From positions 682,001-746,000 of the forward strand of contig NZ_JACOFZ010000001.1 of NCBI RefSeq assembly GCF_014284155.1: a DNA stretch of 64,000 nt, read 5' to 3'. A model generated the notes under the pieces. That model did not search any database, was not told the origin of the DNA, and saw nothing but the letters and a program-made list of their open reading frames with translations. The position numbers and the translations under genes are program-made. This stretch comes from Affinundibacterium nitidum. Lineage in GTDB: Bacteria > Pseudomonadota > Gammaproteobacteria > Burkholderiales > Burkholderiaceae_D. Within the stretch, counting starts at the first letter, position 1, and each line of letters opens with the position of its first letter. Below, piece by piece: positions 4,084 to 11,463 of the stretch.

Positions 4084-4247
4084 TTTTATATGATGGTAGG
4101 TGGTGACAATGACGTCACTCTTGGATGCCTACTTCTCACTTAGCTTGGGCTTGAAATCGAGTTCAATACCCTTTGTCGAAATCGCGATTTTTACAAATTT
4201 TGACTTCTACAAATTCTTTTTTGCGTCTCATCATTTCAAGACCGCAA

Positions 4248-4367
4248 GGTGGGTTCAGAAATCTAATTTTAGGGGTGCAGTACTAGGCGTTTCCCGCAGC
4301 ATTACCGAGGTAATGCGAGGACAAACAACAACGTAATGCGCCCTACAATTAAATTTATGGGCTCACC
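4248..4367. repeat. Structured palindromic repeat, copy 1 (infC-rpmI gap)
   Basis: A 120-base palindrome lying 2 bases after the infC stop. The outermost arms GGTGGGTTCA / TGGGCTCACC pair over 10 positions if G-U pairs are allowed. Inside are the family-specific AAATCTAATTTTAGGGG and CGCCCTACAATTAAATTT arms, and in the centre the perfect hairpin GCATTAC-(4 nt)-GTAATGC. It aligns along its length with the copies at 7079-7196 (opposite orientation) and 9107-9224. The remainder of the 314-base infC-rpmI gap is the rpmI leader. Confidence 0.8.
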
Positions 4368-4369
4368 GA

Positions 4370-4891
4370 CTATTTTTTCTTCTTAGGCGCCAAGATCATA
4401 ACCATCTGGCGTCCTTCCATCTTCGGAAACTGCTCGACTTGACCGTACGGATCCAAATCGACCTTCAAGCGTTCCAACATGCGCATACCAATTTCTTGGT
4501 GAGCCATCTCACGACCACGGAAACGCAAAGTAATTTTGGTTTTATCTCCGTCTTCCAAGAACTTCACGAGATTACGCAACTTAATGTTGTAATCACCGTC
4601 ATCAGTACCTGGACGGAATTTTACTTCCTTCACCAAAATAACCTTTTGCTTCAGCTTGGCTTCATGCGCCTTCTTCTGCTCTTGGTATTTGAACTTGCCG
4701 TAATCCATCAATCGGCAAACTGGTGGTTGCGCTGTTGGCGCGATTTCCACCAAATCCACTTCGGCCTCTTCGGCTAAGCGAAAGGCTTCACCCAGTTTTA
4801 CGATGCCCAACGGCTCGTTATCAACGCCTGACAAGCGCACTTCTGGCGCTGTAATTTCACCGTTGATACGATGTGACTTTTCGGTAGCTAT
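4370..4891 (-). CDS. infC: Translation initiation factor IF-3
   Basis: IF-3 binds the 30S subunit, prevents subunit joining and rejects non-AUG starts. The N-domain ([15 protein letters not shown] ... [12 protein letters not shown]), the lysine-rich linker and the C-domain ([20 protein letters not shown] ... [16 protein letters not shown]) are complete, at 173 residues. I place the start at ATA (4891-4889): AAGGA lies 7 nt upstream of it and the protein then begins (M)[13 protein letters not shown]. An in-frame TTG at 4906 has no Shine-Dalgarno in front. A non-standard infC start is the family's known autoregulatory device. It lies about 60 bases after thrS. Confidence 0.95.
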
Positions 4892-4950
4892 TGCAGTTTC
4901 CTTCAAAAAATTAAATCAACAAGCGGTGCATTTCTGCGGGCAAAAGCTGG

Positions 4951-6858
4951 TTAAGCCTTGGTTTCCAAGTCGTTTTTGAGGCGATCCAAGAAGGCTTCCT
5001 GAGTCATTACACCCAGATCCAGATTACCGCGCGTACGCACAGCCACTGTGTTTGCATCCCGTTCTTTATCACCGACTACGATGATATAAGGCAACTTTTG
5101 CATGGAATGTTCGCGTATTTTATAGGTAATCTTCTCATTACGCAAATCTGTATGCACTCTAAACCCTTGTTTTTTCAGGTTTTCAGCCACAGTTTTTGCA
5201 TATTCAGCCTGAGATTCAGAGATATTGAGTACGGCGACTTGCACTGGTGCCAACCAAGTTGGCAAAGCGCCAGCATGATTTTCAATCAAGATACCAATAA
5301 ATCTTTCCATTGAACCAACAATTGCACGGTGCAACATCACCGGCACTTTACGTGAATTATCGTCAGAGACGTATTCCGCACTTAAACGACCCGGCATAGA
5401 GAAGTCCACCTGCATCGTTCCTACCTGCCATGGACGACCTAAACTATCTTTCAAATGGTATTCGATCTTAGGACCATAGAACGCACCTTCACCTGGCAAC
5501 TCTTCCCAAGTCATGCCGCAATTACGTAAAGCAGCACGCAGAGTATCTTCTGCCTTATCCCAAATTTCATCGGAACCGATGCGGTTATCTGGACGCAAAG
5601 CGATCTTGATTTGGATATTTTCGAAACCAAAGTCATCGTAAACTTTCATCGCTTGTGGATGGAAAGCCATCACTTCATCTTGAATCTGATCTTCGGTACA
5701 GAAAATATGGCCGTCATCTTGTGTAAAGCCGCGGACGCGCATGATGCCGTGCAAAGCACCAGAAGGTTCATTGCGATGACATTGACCGAATTCACCGTAA
5801 CGCAATGGCAATTCGCGATAGCTGCGCATATTCGAATTAAAAATCTGCACGTGACCTGGGCAGTTCATTGGCTTCAATGCGTAATTACGGTTTTCAGACT
5901 CGGTGCTGAACATATTCTCGCGATAGTTCTCCCAATGACCTGTTTTTTCCCACAAGGTACGATCCAAAATTTGTGGCGCTTTTACTTCTTGATAGCCGCA
6001 ATCTTGATAGACTTTACGCATGTATTGCTCAACTTGTTGCCAAACTGTCCAACCTTTTGGGTGCCAGAAGATCAAGCCAGGAGCTTCGTCTTGGAAGTGG
6101 AACAAATCCAAAGATTTACCAAGCTTACGATGGTCGCGCTTCTCCGCTTCTTCCAGCATATGCAAGTATTGCTCTTGATCTTCTTTCTTCGCGAACGCTG
6201 TACCATAAACACGTTGCAGCATTTCATTTTTAGAATCACCACGCCAGTACGCGCCGGCCAACTTCATCAACTTAAATACTTTCAATTTTCCTGTTGATGG
6301 TACGTGTGGGCCACGGCACAAATCGGTGAAGTTACCTTCTGTGTAAAGGGAAACATCCTGATCCGCAGGAATCGATTCGATGATCTCGGCTTTATAGTTT
6401 TCTCCAATAGACTTGAAGTAAGCAACAGCTTCATCGCGCGGCACAACTTTGCGTACGACTTGCTCGTCTTTCTTCGCCAACTCCGTCATTTTCTTTTCGA
6501 TGGCAGCCAAGTCGTCCGGCGTAAATGGGCGCTTGTATGAGAAATCATAGTAAAAGCCATTTTCGATCACAGGACCAATGGTCACTTGTGCATCAGGGAA
6601 CAATTCTTTGACGGCATAAGCCAGCAAATGAGCTGTGGAGTGACGAATTACCTCTAAGCCATCCGCATCCTTATCAGTCACAATCGCCAAATCAGCATCT
6701 GCTTCAATCAGATGTGAGGTGTCGACCAACTTACCATTGACCTTACCAGCCAAGGCAGCTTTTGCTAGGCCCGTGCCGATACTGGCGGCGACTTGCGCCA
6801 CTGTGACAGCGGACTCAAATTGTCGTTGCGAACCATCGGGCAAGCGAATTGAAATCAT
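4951..6858 (-). CDS. thrS: Threonyl-tRNA synthetase
   Basis: Class II synthetase that charges tRNA-Thr and edits Ser-tRNA-Thr. Domains in order are TGS (about 1-62), the editing domain with [16 protein letters not shown], the catalytic core with MNCPGH (zinc cysteine) and [18 protein letters not shown], and the anticodon-binding domain. I choose the start [10 protein letters not shown] at 6858 because GGAG lies 6 nt before it. An upstream in-frame ATG at 6870 would add MEMN with a poorer site. The protein is about 635 residues, normal for the family. It is the first gene of the thrS-infC-rpmI-rplT block and is preceded by a 360-base leader region. Confidence 0.98.
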
Positions 6859-6932
6859 ATTCATCTCCATACGGGCCTAAGCCAAAAAAATTACCAGTTT
6901 AAAATCTCAAAAACTTCAACAAAATTGATAGA

Positions 6933-6960
6933 CGAAAAAAAAACGCGGGCTAGCCGCGTT
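6933..6960 (-). terminator. Terminator or attenuator in front of thrS
   Basis: A perfect 7-bp stem (AACGCGG / CCGCGTT) with a 5-nt loop is followed on the minus strand by nine T residues, about 75 bases before the thrS start. It may end the tRNA-Val transcript or act as an attenuator of thrS. On the plus strand it is followed by TTTT, so it could work weakly in both directions. Confidence 0.8.
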
Positions 6961-6996
6961 TTCTCATCATTACATCTTTTCTTTCAGACGAAAAAG

Positions 6997-7045
6997 CACC
7001 TCGACTAGCGTCGCTCACATTGGAATGTGATCGTAGTTCGCGGTG
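6997..7045. repeat. Imperfect hairpin in thrS upstream region
   Basis: A 49-base dyad with outer arms CACC / GGTG, then CGACTA / TAG-T-TCG, and an inner perfect TCACAT-(4 nt)-ATGTGA. There is no T tract on either side. It sits between repeat copy 2 and the thrS terminator/attenuator, in the direction of thrS transcription. Function unknown. Confidence 0.5.
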
Positions 7046-7078
7046 TCATAACCAAATGCCTTTCTCGCTCTTACTAAA

Positions 7079-7196
7079 GTATCCCTACAAATCCAATTCT
7101 AGGGCGCATCTCTTTGTTGAAAAGCCTCGCAATACAAGAGTATTGCTATGTTTTTCGCCTCAATCTGCATCCCTATAATTGAATTTTTAGGGATAC
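7079..7196. repeat. Structured palindromic repeat, copy 2 (tRNA-Val / thrS gap)
   Basis: A 118-base palindrome. Outer arms GTATCCCTA / TAGGGATAC are a perfect 9-bp pair. The inner family arms are AAATCCAATTCTAGGGCGCA and TGCATCCCTATAATTGAATT, and the central hairpin is GCAATAC-AAGA-GTATTGC (7 bp). It is oriented opposite to copies 1 and 3 and is not attached to a gene end. In the tRNA-Val to thrS gap (6859-7225) I see only this copy, the hairpin at 6997 and the terminator at 6933. Confidence 0.85.
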
Positions 7197-7225
7197 CTAG
7201 CCTTCTTTGTAGATTTTTTGAATTC

Positions 7226-7302
7226 TGGTGGGCGGTGAGGAATTCGAATCCCCGACCCCTTGGATGTCGACCAAGTATTCTAACCAGCTGAACTAACCGC
7301 CC
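7226..7302 (-). tRNA. tRNA-Val (anticodon GAC)
   Basis: A 77-nt cloverleaf with encoded CCA. Acceptor arms GGGCGGT / ACCGCCC, D arm GTTC-AGCTGGTTA-GAAT, anticodon stem CTTGG / CCAAG, and T arm GGGGA-TTCGAAT-TCCTC are all well paired. The anticodon loop reads TCGACAT, which gives GAC at 34-36 and therefore valine, but position 33 is C where nearly all tRNAs have U. A good promoter lies just upstream. Confidence 0.9.
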
Positions 7303-7313
7303 GAAGAGCCGAG

Positions 7314-7342
7314 ACTATAGCAAATACAATCTCTTTCGTAAA
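7314..7342 (-). promoter_or_regulatory. Sigma-70 promoter of tRNA-Val
   Basis: On the minus strand TTTACG (-35), a 17-nt spacer and TATAGT (-10). The -10 ends 11 bases before the tRNA 5' end, so transcription would start a few bases upstream of the mature tRNA. Confidence 0.7.
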
Positions 7343-7496
7343 GTGCTTTTTCTTCTACGATCAAAACCAGCGACTCACCATCACCATATCGGATGCGACT
7401 TGCAGATTTCAATGAATCTAGAAATGTGGCTGTCACGCAAATACTTTACAATGAGCACATCACTGATTGCCGTACCCCTAGACATACCAAAAAGAC

Positions 7497-8459
7497 ATGC
7501 CACACGATACTCATTCGCACGATCCTAAAACCGCCCACCTTCACGCCCATCGTCATGGCGATGCAGAGCATCAGCATTACTTTGCAGATCGTAGTCAATC
7601 AGTGTTGGCGTGGGCGCTCGGTCTCACACTATTTTTCGCAGGCGTCGAAGTGGTATTCGGTTTCGTCTCAAACTCACTTGCCCTAATTTCGGATGCTGGC
7701 CACATGGTGACCGACTCCGCCGCCTTAGGTTTAGCGCTCTTAGCGCAATTGATTGCGAAGCGCCCACCCACGGCAAAACATACCTTTGGCTTTGGTCGAT
7801 CAGAAGCCTTAGCTGCCTTCGTCAATGGCTTAGTGATGCTCGGCGTGGTTGCATGGATTAGTTATGAAGCCATTCAGCGCCTCTTTAAGCCAGAACCCGT
7901 GCAAGGCGGAATGGTAATGGTAGTAGCCGCAATTGGGCTCGCGATCAACATGATCGTCGCTTGGGTGCTTTCTCACGACAAAGAAAGCATGAATACCAAA
8001 GCAGCACTGATTCACGTCATGGGCGATCTTTTGGGTTCAGTGGCAGCAATCATTTCAGGCGCCATCATTGCTTACACAGGCTGGATGCCAATCGATCCTA
8101 TTCTCTCGATATTCGTTTCACTGTTGATTTTGAAATCGACGTTCGCCGTAATCAAAGACTCTTTCCATTTCTTAATGAAAGGCGTGCCACATCACATCGA
8201 CTTCGTCAAAATCGGTGAAGACTTGGAGGCCACACCAGGCGTAGCGTCAGTGCACGATCTCCACATCTGGGACATGTCACCAGGCCAACCTGCATTGATA
8301 GGTCACCTAGAAATCGACGACCTCCTAGCTTGGCCGAGAATTTTAGAGAGCATTAAGAAAATGCTGTTGGACAAACACGGCATCGATCACATTACGCTGC
8401 AAGCGGAAGTACTAAGAGATGAGGAATTCGAGCAGGTTGAGTGCAATCATCAGCATTAA
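7497..8459 (+). CDS. Cation diffusion facilitator, zinc-type exporter
   Basis: Inner-membrane metal/H+ antiporter of the CDF family (CzcD/ZitB-like), 320 residues. A histidine-rich N-terminus (MPHDTHSHDP...HLHAHRH) precedes six predicted membrane segments. The transport site is H69-x3-D73 in helix 2 (DAGHMVTD) and H173-x3-D177 in helix 5 (HVMGD), the HD-HD pattern known for Zn2+/Cd2+ carriers. A cytoplasmic C-terminal domain (about 215-300) follows, ending CNHQH. It stands alone with no metal-responsive regulator next to it. The substrate is inferred from the motif only. Confidence 0.93.
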   Translation: MPHDTHSHDPKTAHLHAHRHGDAEHQHYFADRSQSVLAWALGLTLFFAGVEVVFGFVSNSLALISDAGHMVTDSAALGLALLAQLIAKRPPTAKHTFGFGRSEALAAFVNGLVMLGVVAWISYEAIQRLFKPEPVQGGMVMVVAAIGLAINMIVAWVLSHDKESMNTKAALIHVMGDLLGSVAAIISGAIIAYTGWMPIDPILSIFVSLLILKSTFAVIKDSFHFLMKGVPHHIDFVKIGEDLEATPGVASVHDLHIWDMSPGQPALIGHLEIDDLLAWPRILESIKKMLLDKHGIDHITLQAEVLRDEEFEQVECNHQH

Positions 8460-8630
8460 AAATTTATATCGGCACGTCGAACTCGATCTCAAAGAAGAAA
8501 ATGTGACACAAATTCAATTTCGTCTAATGAGGCGAGCAATAATTTGCAAGAAATGATTTGATTGTATTTTTCACGACCCGGCAAAAAAGTTAAACCAACT
8601 TACTCTTACCCCACCTTGAATAAAAACGAT

Positions 8631-8954
8631 TTATTCGCCATGGATAAACGTCATTTTTCTGGTCTTGTTATCTAAAAGAACCGCGCAATGATCACCTAGA
8701 ACGTTATTTTGTCCCTCAAATCTAACGAACCAAATACCGCCGTTTAAGTTAGCTGTTGTAGAGCGATAATGTGACAGCTTCAATCCTCTCGCTAAAATAA
8801 CTCGTTTCGCCTCTTCTATCGCTTCAATTTTTGAGTAACATCCACTTTAAGCACATTTCGCTTTGACGTCCCACATCTGAGCATGCGAGTCCTTTACCTC
8901 TAAAGCTATTGCAGTGGCGAGCAAGAGGTAAACAACTAATTTTGGAAAAGTCAT
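8631..8954 (-). pseudogene. Broken small secreted-protein gene (in-frame TAA)
   Basis: From ATG at 8954 one uninterrupted frame of 108 codons runs to TAA at 8631, with a single internal TAA at codon 36 (8849-8847). The N-terminus MTFPKLVVYLLLATAIALEV looks like a signal peptide with a cleavage site near SHAQ. After the stop the frame continues protein-like (SGCYSKIEAIEEAKRVILAR ... GGIWFVRFEG ... DHCAVLLDNKTRKMTFIHGE). One base change would restore an approximately 107-residue protein. I do not recognise the family. In the surrounding gap (8460-9106) I see only this gene and a decayed repeat copy. Confidence 0.65.
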
Positions 8955-9019
8955 AATGAATTTAGGCGGCAAATTTATTCAAAATCTTACATCTATCGAC
9001 ACTCAGATCGTAACCTCTT

Positions 9020-9090
9020 TAAAAATTGATCGTGCAGCTAAATATCAGTAAGGCGAGCATTTGCAACGCTGAAATGCGCCCGAGTTTGGA
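9020..9090. repeat. Decayed or partial copy of the palindromic repeat
   Basis: GGCGAGCATTTGCAAC at 9052-9067 and TGCGCCCGAG at 9075-9084 repeat almost exactly the right half of copy 3 (9172-9204). The left part (about 9020-9050) shows only faint similarity to the left arm, so this is a half-copy or an old copy that has lost its palindrome. Confidence 0.55.
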
Positions 9091-9106
9091 ACACCACAAC
9101 AAAAGG

Positions 9107-9224
9107 ACTTGCTCAGAAATTCAATTCTCGGGATGCAGATCGCGACGCAAAGCACAGACGTATGTCGATACGGCGAGCATTTGCAACAAAGAGCTGCGCC
9201 CGAGAATTGGATTTATGAGCAAGT
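9107..9224. repeat. Structured palindromic repeat, copy 3 (behind relA)
   Basis: A 118-base palindrome ending one base before the relA stop codon. Outer arms ACTTGCTCA / TGAGCAAGT are a perfect 9-bp pair. The inner family arms are AAATTCAATTCTCGGGATGC and GCGCCCGAGAATTGGATTT, and the central hairpin is CGTAT-(4 nt)-ATACG. Same orientation as copy 1. It could act as the relA transcript end. Confidence 0.85.
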
Positions 9225-9225
9225 A

Positions 9226-11463
9226 CTAAGAGCGACGAACCTCTTGAACCCCACTCACCTCACGAATAATATTCAATGACTTCTGCAACTGCGTCGTGCC
9301 ATTAATCTCCACCGTAAATGACATTTTCGCTTGGCCTTTAGCACTCTGAGTATTGACACCAATCACATTAATTTTTTCACGCGAAAAAATCTCCGAGATA
9401 TCGCGCAATAAGCCTTGACGATCCTGCGCCATAACAAAAATGTCGACGGGATAAACGGTATCGCGTCCACCGTCTCCCCATGTCGTTTGAATCAAGCGCT
9501 CAGGCGCCTTACTTCGCATCTCCGCAAAGTTTTTACATGTCAGACGATGGATAGAAACCCCTTTGCCACGCGTAACGAAACCAACGATATCATCGGGTGG
9601 TGCAGGTTTGCAGCAGCGTGCAAGTTGCGTCATCAAGCCGTCGGTTCCGACGACTAACACACCAGATTTCGCGCCTTGAATCACACTTGAAGCGCGGCTC
9701 TTATTCGCGATGACAAACTCGGGGGCAACTTCGCTTTCAGGATTGTCACGCAACGCCGTTTCGACTTGACGCAAACTAAACTCTTCCTTGCCAACCGAGA
9801 GGAATAATTCATCTACGGTGGCAAAACCGAGCTTACGCGCCAACTCTTCTAAGTTGACCGAAGTCTTACCTTCACGCTGCAACGTTTTCTCGATCATGCC
9901 ACGCCCCGTGTTGAGCGTTTCTTGCTGATCGATGGCATTAAACCATGCACGAATCTTAGTTCTGGTACGAGTACCAATGGAATATTCAGGATTCAACCAA
10001 TCACGCGACGGCCCTGCCTGAATCGAACCAATTTTTAGCGTAATAATTTCAACGGTTTGGCCATTTTTAAGGCGAGTATTGAGCGGCACCATCACACCAT
10101 CGACGCGCGCCCCACGGCAGCGATGTCCAACGTCGGTATGCAGTTGATACGCGAAATCGACTGGCGTCGCGCCGCTTGGCAATTCAATCACCCTTGCTTG
10201 CGGCGTCAGCACATAAATACGGTCATCTAAAGTCGCCGCTTTAACCTTCTCTACCCATTCACGCTGCAACTGTTCTTGATCAACAACCACATCCGAGACT
10301 TCATTTTTCCAGGCAAGCAGTTGGCGTAGCCATGCGATTTTCTCGTCATATTCTTGCGCTGAAAAATTTGAGCCACCTGTCTCTTTATAACGCCAGTGAG
10401 CGGCCACACCAAACTCTGAAAACTGATGCATTTCCTTGGTACGAATTTGCACTTCGAGCGGACGTCCATCATCGACGATGACGACCGTATGCAAAGATTT
10501 ATATCCGTTGGGCTTGGGGCGAGAAATATAATCGTCAAACTCTTTCGGAATCGGTGTCCAAAGATTATTAAGGATACCTAAGACCGTATAACAATCCTTA
10601 ATGTCATCGACAATGACGCGGAAAGCACGCACATCGTAGAGCTCATCGAAGTCGACCTTCTTACCCTTCATCTTTTTCCAAATACTGAAGATGTGCTTGG
10701 GACGACCACTCACTTCTGCTTTAACGTCGACAGCGGCGAGTTCTTTTTCAAGCCGAGCAATGGCAGAGACCACAAAGCTTTCCCGTTCGACCCGCTTTTC
10801 CTCGAGCATCTTGGCAATTTTCTTATATTGCTCTGGCTCTAAAAAGCGGAACGACAAATCCTCCAATTCCCACTTCAACTGCCACACACCAAGACGATTC
10901 GCCAACGGCGCATACAAATCCATGGTTTCGCTAGCGTACTGTTGAACTGCACCGTCATCACGTTTGCATTCGGCGAAGTAACGTAAAGAGGTAAGGCGCG
11001 ACGCAAGGCGCACCAACACGACGCGCATATCATTTGCCATCGCTAACACCATTTTACGCAAGACTTCCATCTGCGAAGCGGTGCGTTCTGCTTCATCTTT
11101 CCCTCTACCGACATCGTGTTGGGTGAGCGTCGCTTCGCGTAGGCGCAGCAAACGACGTACACCTGCCACGAGCTCACTAATTTCTTTACCGAATCGGGCT
11201 TCGATTTTTTCTGCAGCCAAAGGATTTGCTTCAGTCAATTCAAACAACAAAGCTGCAATTCTGGTATCGACATCCGTCTTTAACATGGCCAGCGTGGAGG
11301 CGACGCCAACAGCAAACTGCAATGCATTTTGCTCAGTGATGATTGCGTGATTTTCGTAATACGGAGTCACGAACTCAAGCGCCTGTTTTACACGCTCAGC
11401 ATCAGCGGCAGACAAACCCTCAACCAGTTGTGCTTCATTAATAGATGCGGACAAAGAAACCAT
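9226..11463 (-). CDS. relA: (p)ppGpp synthetase RelA, synthesis-only type
   Basis: Ribosome-associated stringent-response enzyme that makes (p)ppGpp from ATP and GDP/GTP; 745 residues. The N-terminal hydrolase-like region lacks the metal-binding HD pair (LLFELTEANP at the place of the HD motif), so only synthesis is expected. The synthetase domain carries FDELYDVRAFRV, EFDDYISRPKPNGYKSLHT and EVQIRT. The TGS domain (RIYVLTPQARVIELPSGATP) and C-terminal ACT domain (DIFVMAQDRQGLLRDISEIF) are intact. It follows a RidA-like gene and ends next to repeat copy 3. Confidence 0.95.
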   Translation of the reverse strand: MVSLSASINEAQLVEGLSAADAERVKQALEFVTPYYENHAIITEQNALQFAVGVASTLAMLKTDVDTRIAALLFELTEANPLAAEKIEARFGKEISELVAGVRRLLRLREATLTQHDVGRGKDEAERTASQMEVLRKMVLAMANDMRVVLVRLASRLTSLRYFAECKRDDGAVQQYASETMDLYAPLANRLGVWQLKWELEDLSFRFLEPEQYKKIAKMLEEKRVERESFVVSAIARLEKELAAVDVKAEVSGRPKHIFSIWKKMKGKKVDFDELYDVRAFRVIVDDIKDCYTVLGILNNLWTPIPKEFDDYISRPKPNGYKSLHTVVIVDDGRPLEVQIRTKEMHQFSEFGVAAHWRYKETGGSNFSAQEYDEKIAWLRQLLAWKNEVSDVVVDQEQLQREWVEKVKAATLDDRIYVLTPQARVIELPSGATPVDFAYQLHTDVGHRCRGARVDGVMVPLNTRLKNGQTVEIITLKIGSIQAGPSRDWLNPEYSIGTRTRTKIRAWFNAIDQQETLNTGRGMIEKTLQREGKTSVNLEELARKLGFATVDELFLSVGKEEFSLRQVETALRDNPESEVAPEFVIANKSRASSVIQGAKSGVLVVGTDGLMTQLARCCKPAPPDDIVGFVTRGKGVSIHRLTCKNFAEMRSKAPERLIQTTWGDGGRDTVYPVDIFVMAQDRQGLLRDISEIFSREKINVIGVNTQSAKGQAKMSFTVEINGTTQLQKSLNIIREVSGVQEVRRS

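Follow-up and report, generated by a model that had tools for sequence, protein, structure and literature searches.

The Correia repeat (CREE/NEMIS) of Neisseria is a hairpin of about 100 bp that occurs in many copies and carries an inner core of the form CAAGGCG ... tip hairpin ... GCAACG. A TA target-site duplication and promoter, IHF and RNase III activities are further marks of this element. Strains differ in the presence and absence of Correia elements, according to the portion of PMC2649163 available. REP/BIME/REPIN sequences, which go with RAYT, are likewise palindromic, extragenic and multi-copy, but measure 20-40 bp in the available part of PMC3733652, against 98 bp for the core described below. 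ERIC, RUP, YPAL and other bacterial MITEs are alike in size and yield stable stem-loop transcripts, but the accessible sections of PMC2229807 describe most of them as bearing terminal inverted repeats and ending in TA, and mention neither a stop-codon rule nor a private outer stem. Finally, stems can be both created and repaired by template switching, which can also yield compensatory double changes; the available part of PMC8794818 deals with this process in RNA genes rather than in mobile repeats.

The window, by which we mean the whole 64,000-nucleotide stretch of Affinundibacterium nitidum DNA that was analysed, contains three related hairpins. They probably represent a new, stop-codon-anchored branch of the Correia-type palindromic repeat superfamily, non-coding and MITE-like, that is spread through Undibacterium and some other Burkholderiales and reaches dozens of copies per genome.

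Architecture of the three window copies

The three elements are imperfect hairpins of approximately 118-120 bp, each consisting of a common 98-bp core enclosed by a private outer stem. The original prediction had placed three copies at 4248-4367, 7079-7196 and 9107-9224, with the middle one inverted, and all of them are present. Their parts, with scores from covariance model R1, are as follows.

4248..4257, + strand: copy 1 private outer arm, pairs with 4358-4367 (sequence and folding)
4259..4356, + strand (element strand): copy 1 core, 98 bp (alignment; R1 102.2 bits)
4358..4367, + strand: copy 1 private outer arm, gene side, next to the infC stop at 4370-4372 (sequence and folding)
7079..7087, - strand: copy 2 private outer arm, pairs with 7188-7196 (sequence and folding)
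7089..7186, - strand: copy 2 core, 98 bp (alignment; R1 99.8 bits)
7188..7196, - strand: copy 2 private outer arm, pairs with 7079-7087 (sequence and folding)
9052..9086, + strand: half-copy remnant that keeps just the gene-proximal half, past the far side of copy 3 (by eye)
9107..9115, + strand: copy 3 private outer arm, pairs with 9216-9224 (sequence and folding)
9117..9214, + strand: copy 3 core, 98 bp (alignment; R1 95.6 bits)
9216..9224, + strand: copy 3 private outer arm, gene side (sequence and folding)

Each copy folds into one long hairpin, with z values of -4.7 to -9.6 over both strands that none of 200 shuffles equalled. The outer 9-10 bp on each side are unlike between the window copies, yet paired within each of them (GTATCCCTA/TAGGGATAC, ACTTGCTCA/TGAGCAAGT and GGTGGGTTCA/TGGGCTCACC). 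Alignment of the own-genome copies shows that on the element strand the core starts with AAATTCAATT and finishes with AATTGGATTT. It contains conserved internal loops, with AGGCG opposite CAAC; these loops and the fixed mismatches show that the core is subject to further constraint. The copy 1 core lies 13 nt past the stop codon of infC (4370-4906, - strand) and the copy 3 core 11 nt past that of a RelA/SpoT-family gene (9226-11463, - strand), while copy 2, an exception to the stop-codon rule set out below, lies between tRNA-Val (7226-7302, - strand) and thrS (4951-6870, - strand). The half-copy remnant gave no R1 match when the window was scanned with the model; a similar half-copy is found downstream in L077. 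An Rfam scan of the window at the gathering score returned no match, and at E<=5 the interval 4200-9300 held just the tRNA and an sRNA below threshold, whose span (6934-7012) does not touch the element.

Copy number and distribution

Further copies, which the original prediction proposed to seek with a covariance model in this genome and its relatives, were found in both. In the own genome blastn located 15 places, and R1, after removal of reverse-strand duplicates, located 35 non-redundant places at E<=0.1, with 30 at E<=1e-7, of which 27 are full-length; three of the R1 copies lie in the window. Among 99 genomes, 60 have an R1 match at E<=0.001, comprising 42 of 44 from the same genus (Undibacterium) and 18 of 55 others. 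Matches at E<=1e-18 occur in 31 of the 44 same-genus genomes, and none of the 55 others has a match below 1e-12; copy counts per genome are lower bounds, with 41 candidates scored in each. An exact pattern for the left end found 105 stretches in named records, and among the matches listed (80 of the 105) 41 were Undibacterium by title, 12 other Oxalobacteraceae, 12 Comamonadaceae, 9 unplaced Burkholderiales, 3 Polaromonas and 3 Rhodoferax. In Polaromonas sp. P2-4 (L211) and Rhodoferax (L163), for example, R1 recognized full elements outside Undibacterium, scoring 109 and 109.7 bits.

Copies of 190-195 bp (L137 7134-7323 and L191 3223-3417) hold an extra hairpin of the GGGGTCAGA... type in their inner part, and tandem arrays of the element occur in L049 (1501-1995; five units spaced about 100-110 bp apart), L051, L279, L240 and L324. 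In the literature searched, this family was not described from Undibacterium and the Correia core was not reported outside Neisseria; identity with the Polaromonas MITE that Mattes 2008 is said to describe is possible.

Position behind stop codons

Twenty-one of the 27 full own-genome copies begin between -2 and +15 nt past a stop codon, all in one orientation, with the frame that ends at the element antiparallel to the element strand; the reading frames in this count were picked by length and are not annotated genes. The six that do not fit are window copy 2 next to tRNA-Val (L026), the second members of two tandem pairs (L027 and L039), and L032, L034 and L041. In a second set, from which own-genome copies were excluded, 71 of 92 distinct copies had a frame of 100 codons or more ending within -25 to +60 nt of the element on the gene side, compared with 10 of 92 for the far side (16 of 108 aligned rows were dropped for identity or short flank, and copies related by descent may be among those kept). 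With frames of at least 45 codons, a stop lies within -3 to +20 nt in 151 of 187 distinct copies (36 dropped), and all 63 orthologous elements that R1 detected have their start -2 to +18 nt past the stop.

The distances from stop to element form two clusters, -2 to 4 and 7 to 18 nt. In the 106 copies of the long class (7 to 18 nt) the outer stem occupies the gap between stop and core: pairing at the first nine positions past the stop is 0.66-0.88, against 0.44-0.54 in a permuted control, and falls to control level inside the stop codon itself (0.67, 0.56 and 0.41 against 0.51, 0.51 and 0.40). Some short-class copies at gabD-type and thiolase sites read TAAATY...AATTTA, which long-class copies do not. 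By best NCBIfam name, several of these below the curated cut-offs, the adjacent genes include icd, pyk, a GAPDH gene, murA, guaA, prpC, a parE-type subunit, queA, yebC, infC and genes for a peroxiredoxin, a thiolase and a RelA/SpoT protein.

Kinship with the Correia repeat

Correia sequences for comparison were taken from 16 loci found through the published terminal repeat, putatively of the genus Neisseria. R1 matches Correia elements in 8 of these loci (E 1.6e-5 to 0.0033), while R2, a model of the inner core with 13 pairs, matched none of the 16 at E<0.01. Weak R1 matches in one same-genus and five other-genus genomes have the inner core in common and differ in their arms, among the matches listed (18 of 24 loci). 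One of them, L360, from a genome of the window's family (G048), aligns to the Correia core over 60 bases, and none of 1000 shuffles aligned as well; the same was true of L354, L349 and the Rhodoferax and Polaromonas elements, whereas 11 and 266 of 1000 shuffles did as well as L352 and L353. Compared directly with the Correia core, the window copy W4259 is weakly similar (3 of 1000 shuffles), and W9117 (59) and W7089 (393) are not significant. As judged from these alignments, a conserved Correia-type core is present at the level of the superfamily, mainly through intermediates.

The ends of the two families differ, being AAATTCAATT and AATTGGATTT here and a 26-bp repeat in Correia elements. An exact pattern for one variant of that terminus (TATAGTGGATTAA...) had no match in the own genome or in three other same-genus genomes, and in a search of 399 genomes it matched five, all in one genus of another family. 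The locus-specific outer stems, the anchoring to stop codons in one orientation and the other host groups are further differences. Since ends, hosts and site rule differ, the present family belongs to the same superfamily but lies outside Correia proper. The possibility that stop anchoring is a superfamily-wide trait was rejected: neither side nor distance is constant at 21 loci of other families, or at the neisserial loci in which both repeats are present (11 of 16). Core relatives with long outer arms, nearly constant among the copies listed, were seen in G037 and G095 (L352-L369), and these look more like ordinary MITEs.

Occupancy of orthologous sites and the outer stem

Occupancy of the same stop codon varies between genomes. 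At infC, where 41 genomes matched and 30 loci were fetched, 5 carry the element; at relA (42 matching genomes, 30 loci fetched) 2 do. For 19 further genes in six genomes, picked because the own genome has the element there, 68 of 109 orthologous 3' ends are filled and 41 empty; 63 of the filled sites were detected by R1 and 5, among nine loci outside the R1 scan, by pattern. From this presence and absence at orthologous sites we infer mobility, and the original suggestion of a hairpin-type mobile element is probably right. Comparison of empty and filled sites revealed no clean target-site duplication, whether of TA or otherwise. At one site, the queA 3' end of G017 (L280), the element is missing as if deleted between two ATTCAATCT stretches, which flank the element in the own genome. 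Other palindromic repeats are seen shortly past the same stops in element-free orthologs (AAAACCCCTCAACGC..., REP-like CATTCCTGCGTAGGCAGGAATCC, and GTAGGGCGGGTGAAACCCGC, at L262, L330 and L337; L250 and L275; L307).

Private arms pair with their own partners: the observed mean over 27 own-genome copies was reached in none of 20000 partner permutations. Among 94 pairs of copies whose cores are at least 90% alike, orthologs included, the near arms are unlike in 48 and similar in 38. L175/L326 and L204/L329 are examples of such pairs that sit at different genes and differ in their arms, and the outer stem therefore seems to belong to the site. The element can also sit between a stop codon and another copy, as in L274 and at icd in G000 and G017 (L020 and L278, compared with L243, L256, L283 and L336).

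Covariation and its origin

The compensatory changes reported for the family are genuine. In 14 own-genome copies, 18 of 36 core pairs have changed on both sides, a number reached in none of 500 shuffles, and 93.8% of cells in the core are paired, against 28-43% when the partner is slid by 1-3 columns; the structure, an RNAalifold consensus of the same alignment, is favoured over the slides for that reason. The covariation thus lies above both the shuffle and the slide control, contrary to the second refuting outcome envisaged in the original prediction. One of the causes first proposed, selection on an RNA fold, is unsupported. Across 178 distinct copies, with two mostly-T.G pairs excluded, there are 5511 Watson-Crick cells, 88 G.T, 79 A.C and 150 other mismatches (364 G.T and 81 A.C with those two pairs included). 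Between orthologous copies (one pair per gene, usable in 17 of 21 genes, some pairs being perhaps replacements rather than the same insertion), 42 compensatory and 14 non-pairing double changes were counted, where about 16 doubles of any kind are expected if the sides change independently; single changes gave 20 G.T and 22 A.C wobbles and 53 other mismatches. If an RNA fold were under selection, G.U should be tolerated and A.C should not, and the balance observed therefore argues for a one-step process in DNA and against a one-strand RNA fold. Such a fold had been suggested by two observations: two of the pairs are nearly always T.G, and the strand antisense to the gene has the lower folding energy. 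Overall, the covariation looks like the product of a DNA-level process rather than of classical RNA selection.

At the prpC 3' end of G033 (L253, 1378-1474) the inner part of the element is inverted relative to its orthologs L282 and L322. A near-perfect palindrome results, matched by R1 on both strands, and the inversion is probably a template-switch footprint.

Alternative explanations

The element might instead be a host-functional RNA element of the 3'-UTR, a 3'-end hairpin or RNase III site selected at particular genes and no longer mainly mobile. This account, possible though not likely, would explain the fixed position and orientation at stops, the excess of compensatory changes between orthologs over the roughly 16 doubles expected, and the steady occupancy of some genes: thiolase, yebC, acyl-CoA dehydrogenase and parE-type sites are filled in 6 of 6 relatives and icd, icmF-type and gdh-type sites in 5 of 6 (some names below curated cut-offs). 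It would also accommodate sister genomes that carry quite different members at one stop, for example L021 and L271. Such an element should, however, leave a G.U bias, which is absent. Nor is the stem followed by a T-run: in the 40 nt past the core TTTTT occurs in 7 and AAAAA in 37 of 151 copies, and T, at 0.74 at the conserved second base, never exceeds 0.44 afterwards. An intrinsic terminator was ruled out on the same ground, the lack of a T-run directly past the stem. At gap, moreover, a hairpin resembling an intrinsic terminator lies further downstream in element-free relatives, and its beginning is also seen behind the element in the own genome. Nor are element-free orthologs richer than window genes in hairpins within the 55 nt past the stop: 9 of 41 against 12 of 42 fold at or below -12 kcal/mol.

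That last comparison also tells against a second proposal, in which a hairpin already present past the stop receives the element in its loop, and the stem of that older hairpin becomes the private outer stem. The idea was suggested by infC, where the element-free loci L108, L109, L111 and L112 have a plain hairpin and the outer stem of the filled loci resembles that of L108/L112. Other empty sites lend it no support, as the 55 nt past the stop fold with only -1.3 to -9.1 kcal/mol at gap (L257, L267, L295 and L308) and at murA (L286, L303, L314 and L333), and insertion into existing hairpins is quite improbable.

Integron attC sites, with core sites RYYYAAC...GTTRRRY and an integron integrase to act on them, are located behind stop codons. 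A recombinase that recognises the element as folded single-stranded DNA, in the manner of attC or REP/RAYT sites, would fit this position, the conserved unpaired bases and the one strand with nearly fixed T.G pairs. This reading is very improbable, given that the adjacent genes are ordinary chromosomal ones, that no attC consensus was seen by eye and that, of the 20 Y1-transposase loci fetched, just one lies near a copy, which is an ordinary one. PF01797 occurs in 43 of 44 genomes, including ones without strong copies such as G013, and a RAYT/Y1 transposase as mobiliser was ruled out by the absent neighbourhood link (20 Y1 loci; 44 genomes for PF01797).

Model and implications

We thus return to a mobile, stop-codon-anchored branch of the Correia-type superfamily as the probable reading. 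Several results weigh against it: the Y1/RAYT loci yielded no linked enzyme, the Correia terminal repeat is absent and R2 missed the Correia elements, two of the three window copies lack significant direct similarity to the Correia core, no clean target-site duplication was seen, six of the 27 own-genome copies break the stop rule, and 38 of the 94 pairs with like cores have like near arms as well. The palindromic repeat family of the original prediction stands; its position at stop codons, its Correia-type core and its distribution had been missed. According to this model, copies would spread by some transposition or copying process, with insertion directly past a stop codon tolerated or preferred, and the complementarity of the arms would be maintained mainly in the DNA itself, through template switching within the hairpin, gene conversion or replacement with other copies. 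If co-transcribed with the upstream gene, the element is predicted to give a long 3'-UTR hairpin, which may act on the mRNA 3' end as an RNase III target or as a barrier to exonucleases. A bolder version, which we regard as unlikely, would have a Correia-type element insert precisely past stops in one orientation, coupled to termination of transcription or translation, after which template-switch copying would build the locus-specific outer stem and the covariation would arise from DNA replication alone.

These observations extend to other Betaproteobacteria a Correia-type core that, in the portions of the literature available to us, was known only from Neisseria. The many filled and empty orthologous sites provide material for asking how Correia-type elements move, a question left unanswered in the accessible parts of the Correia literature. 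The family also carries a caution for RNA discovery, since its very strong covariation comes with a mismatch pattern unlike that of RNA selection, and it is a natural system in which to test whether template switching gives rise to compensatory change. The stop-codon rule, in turn, makes the mechanism of targeting or selection behind it directly testable.
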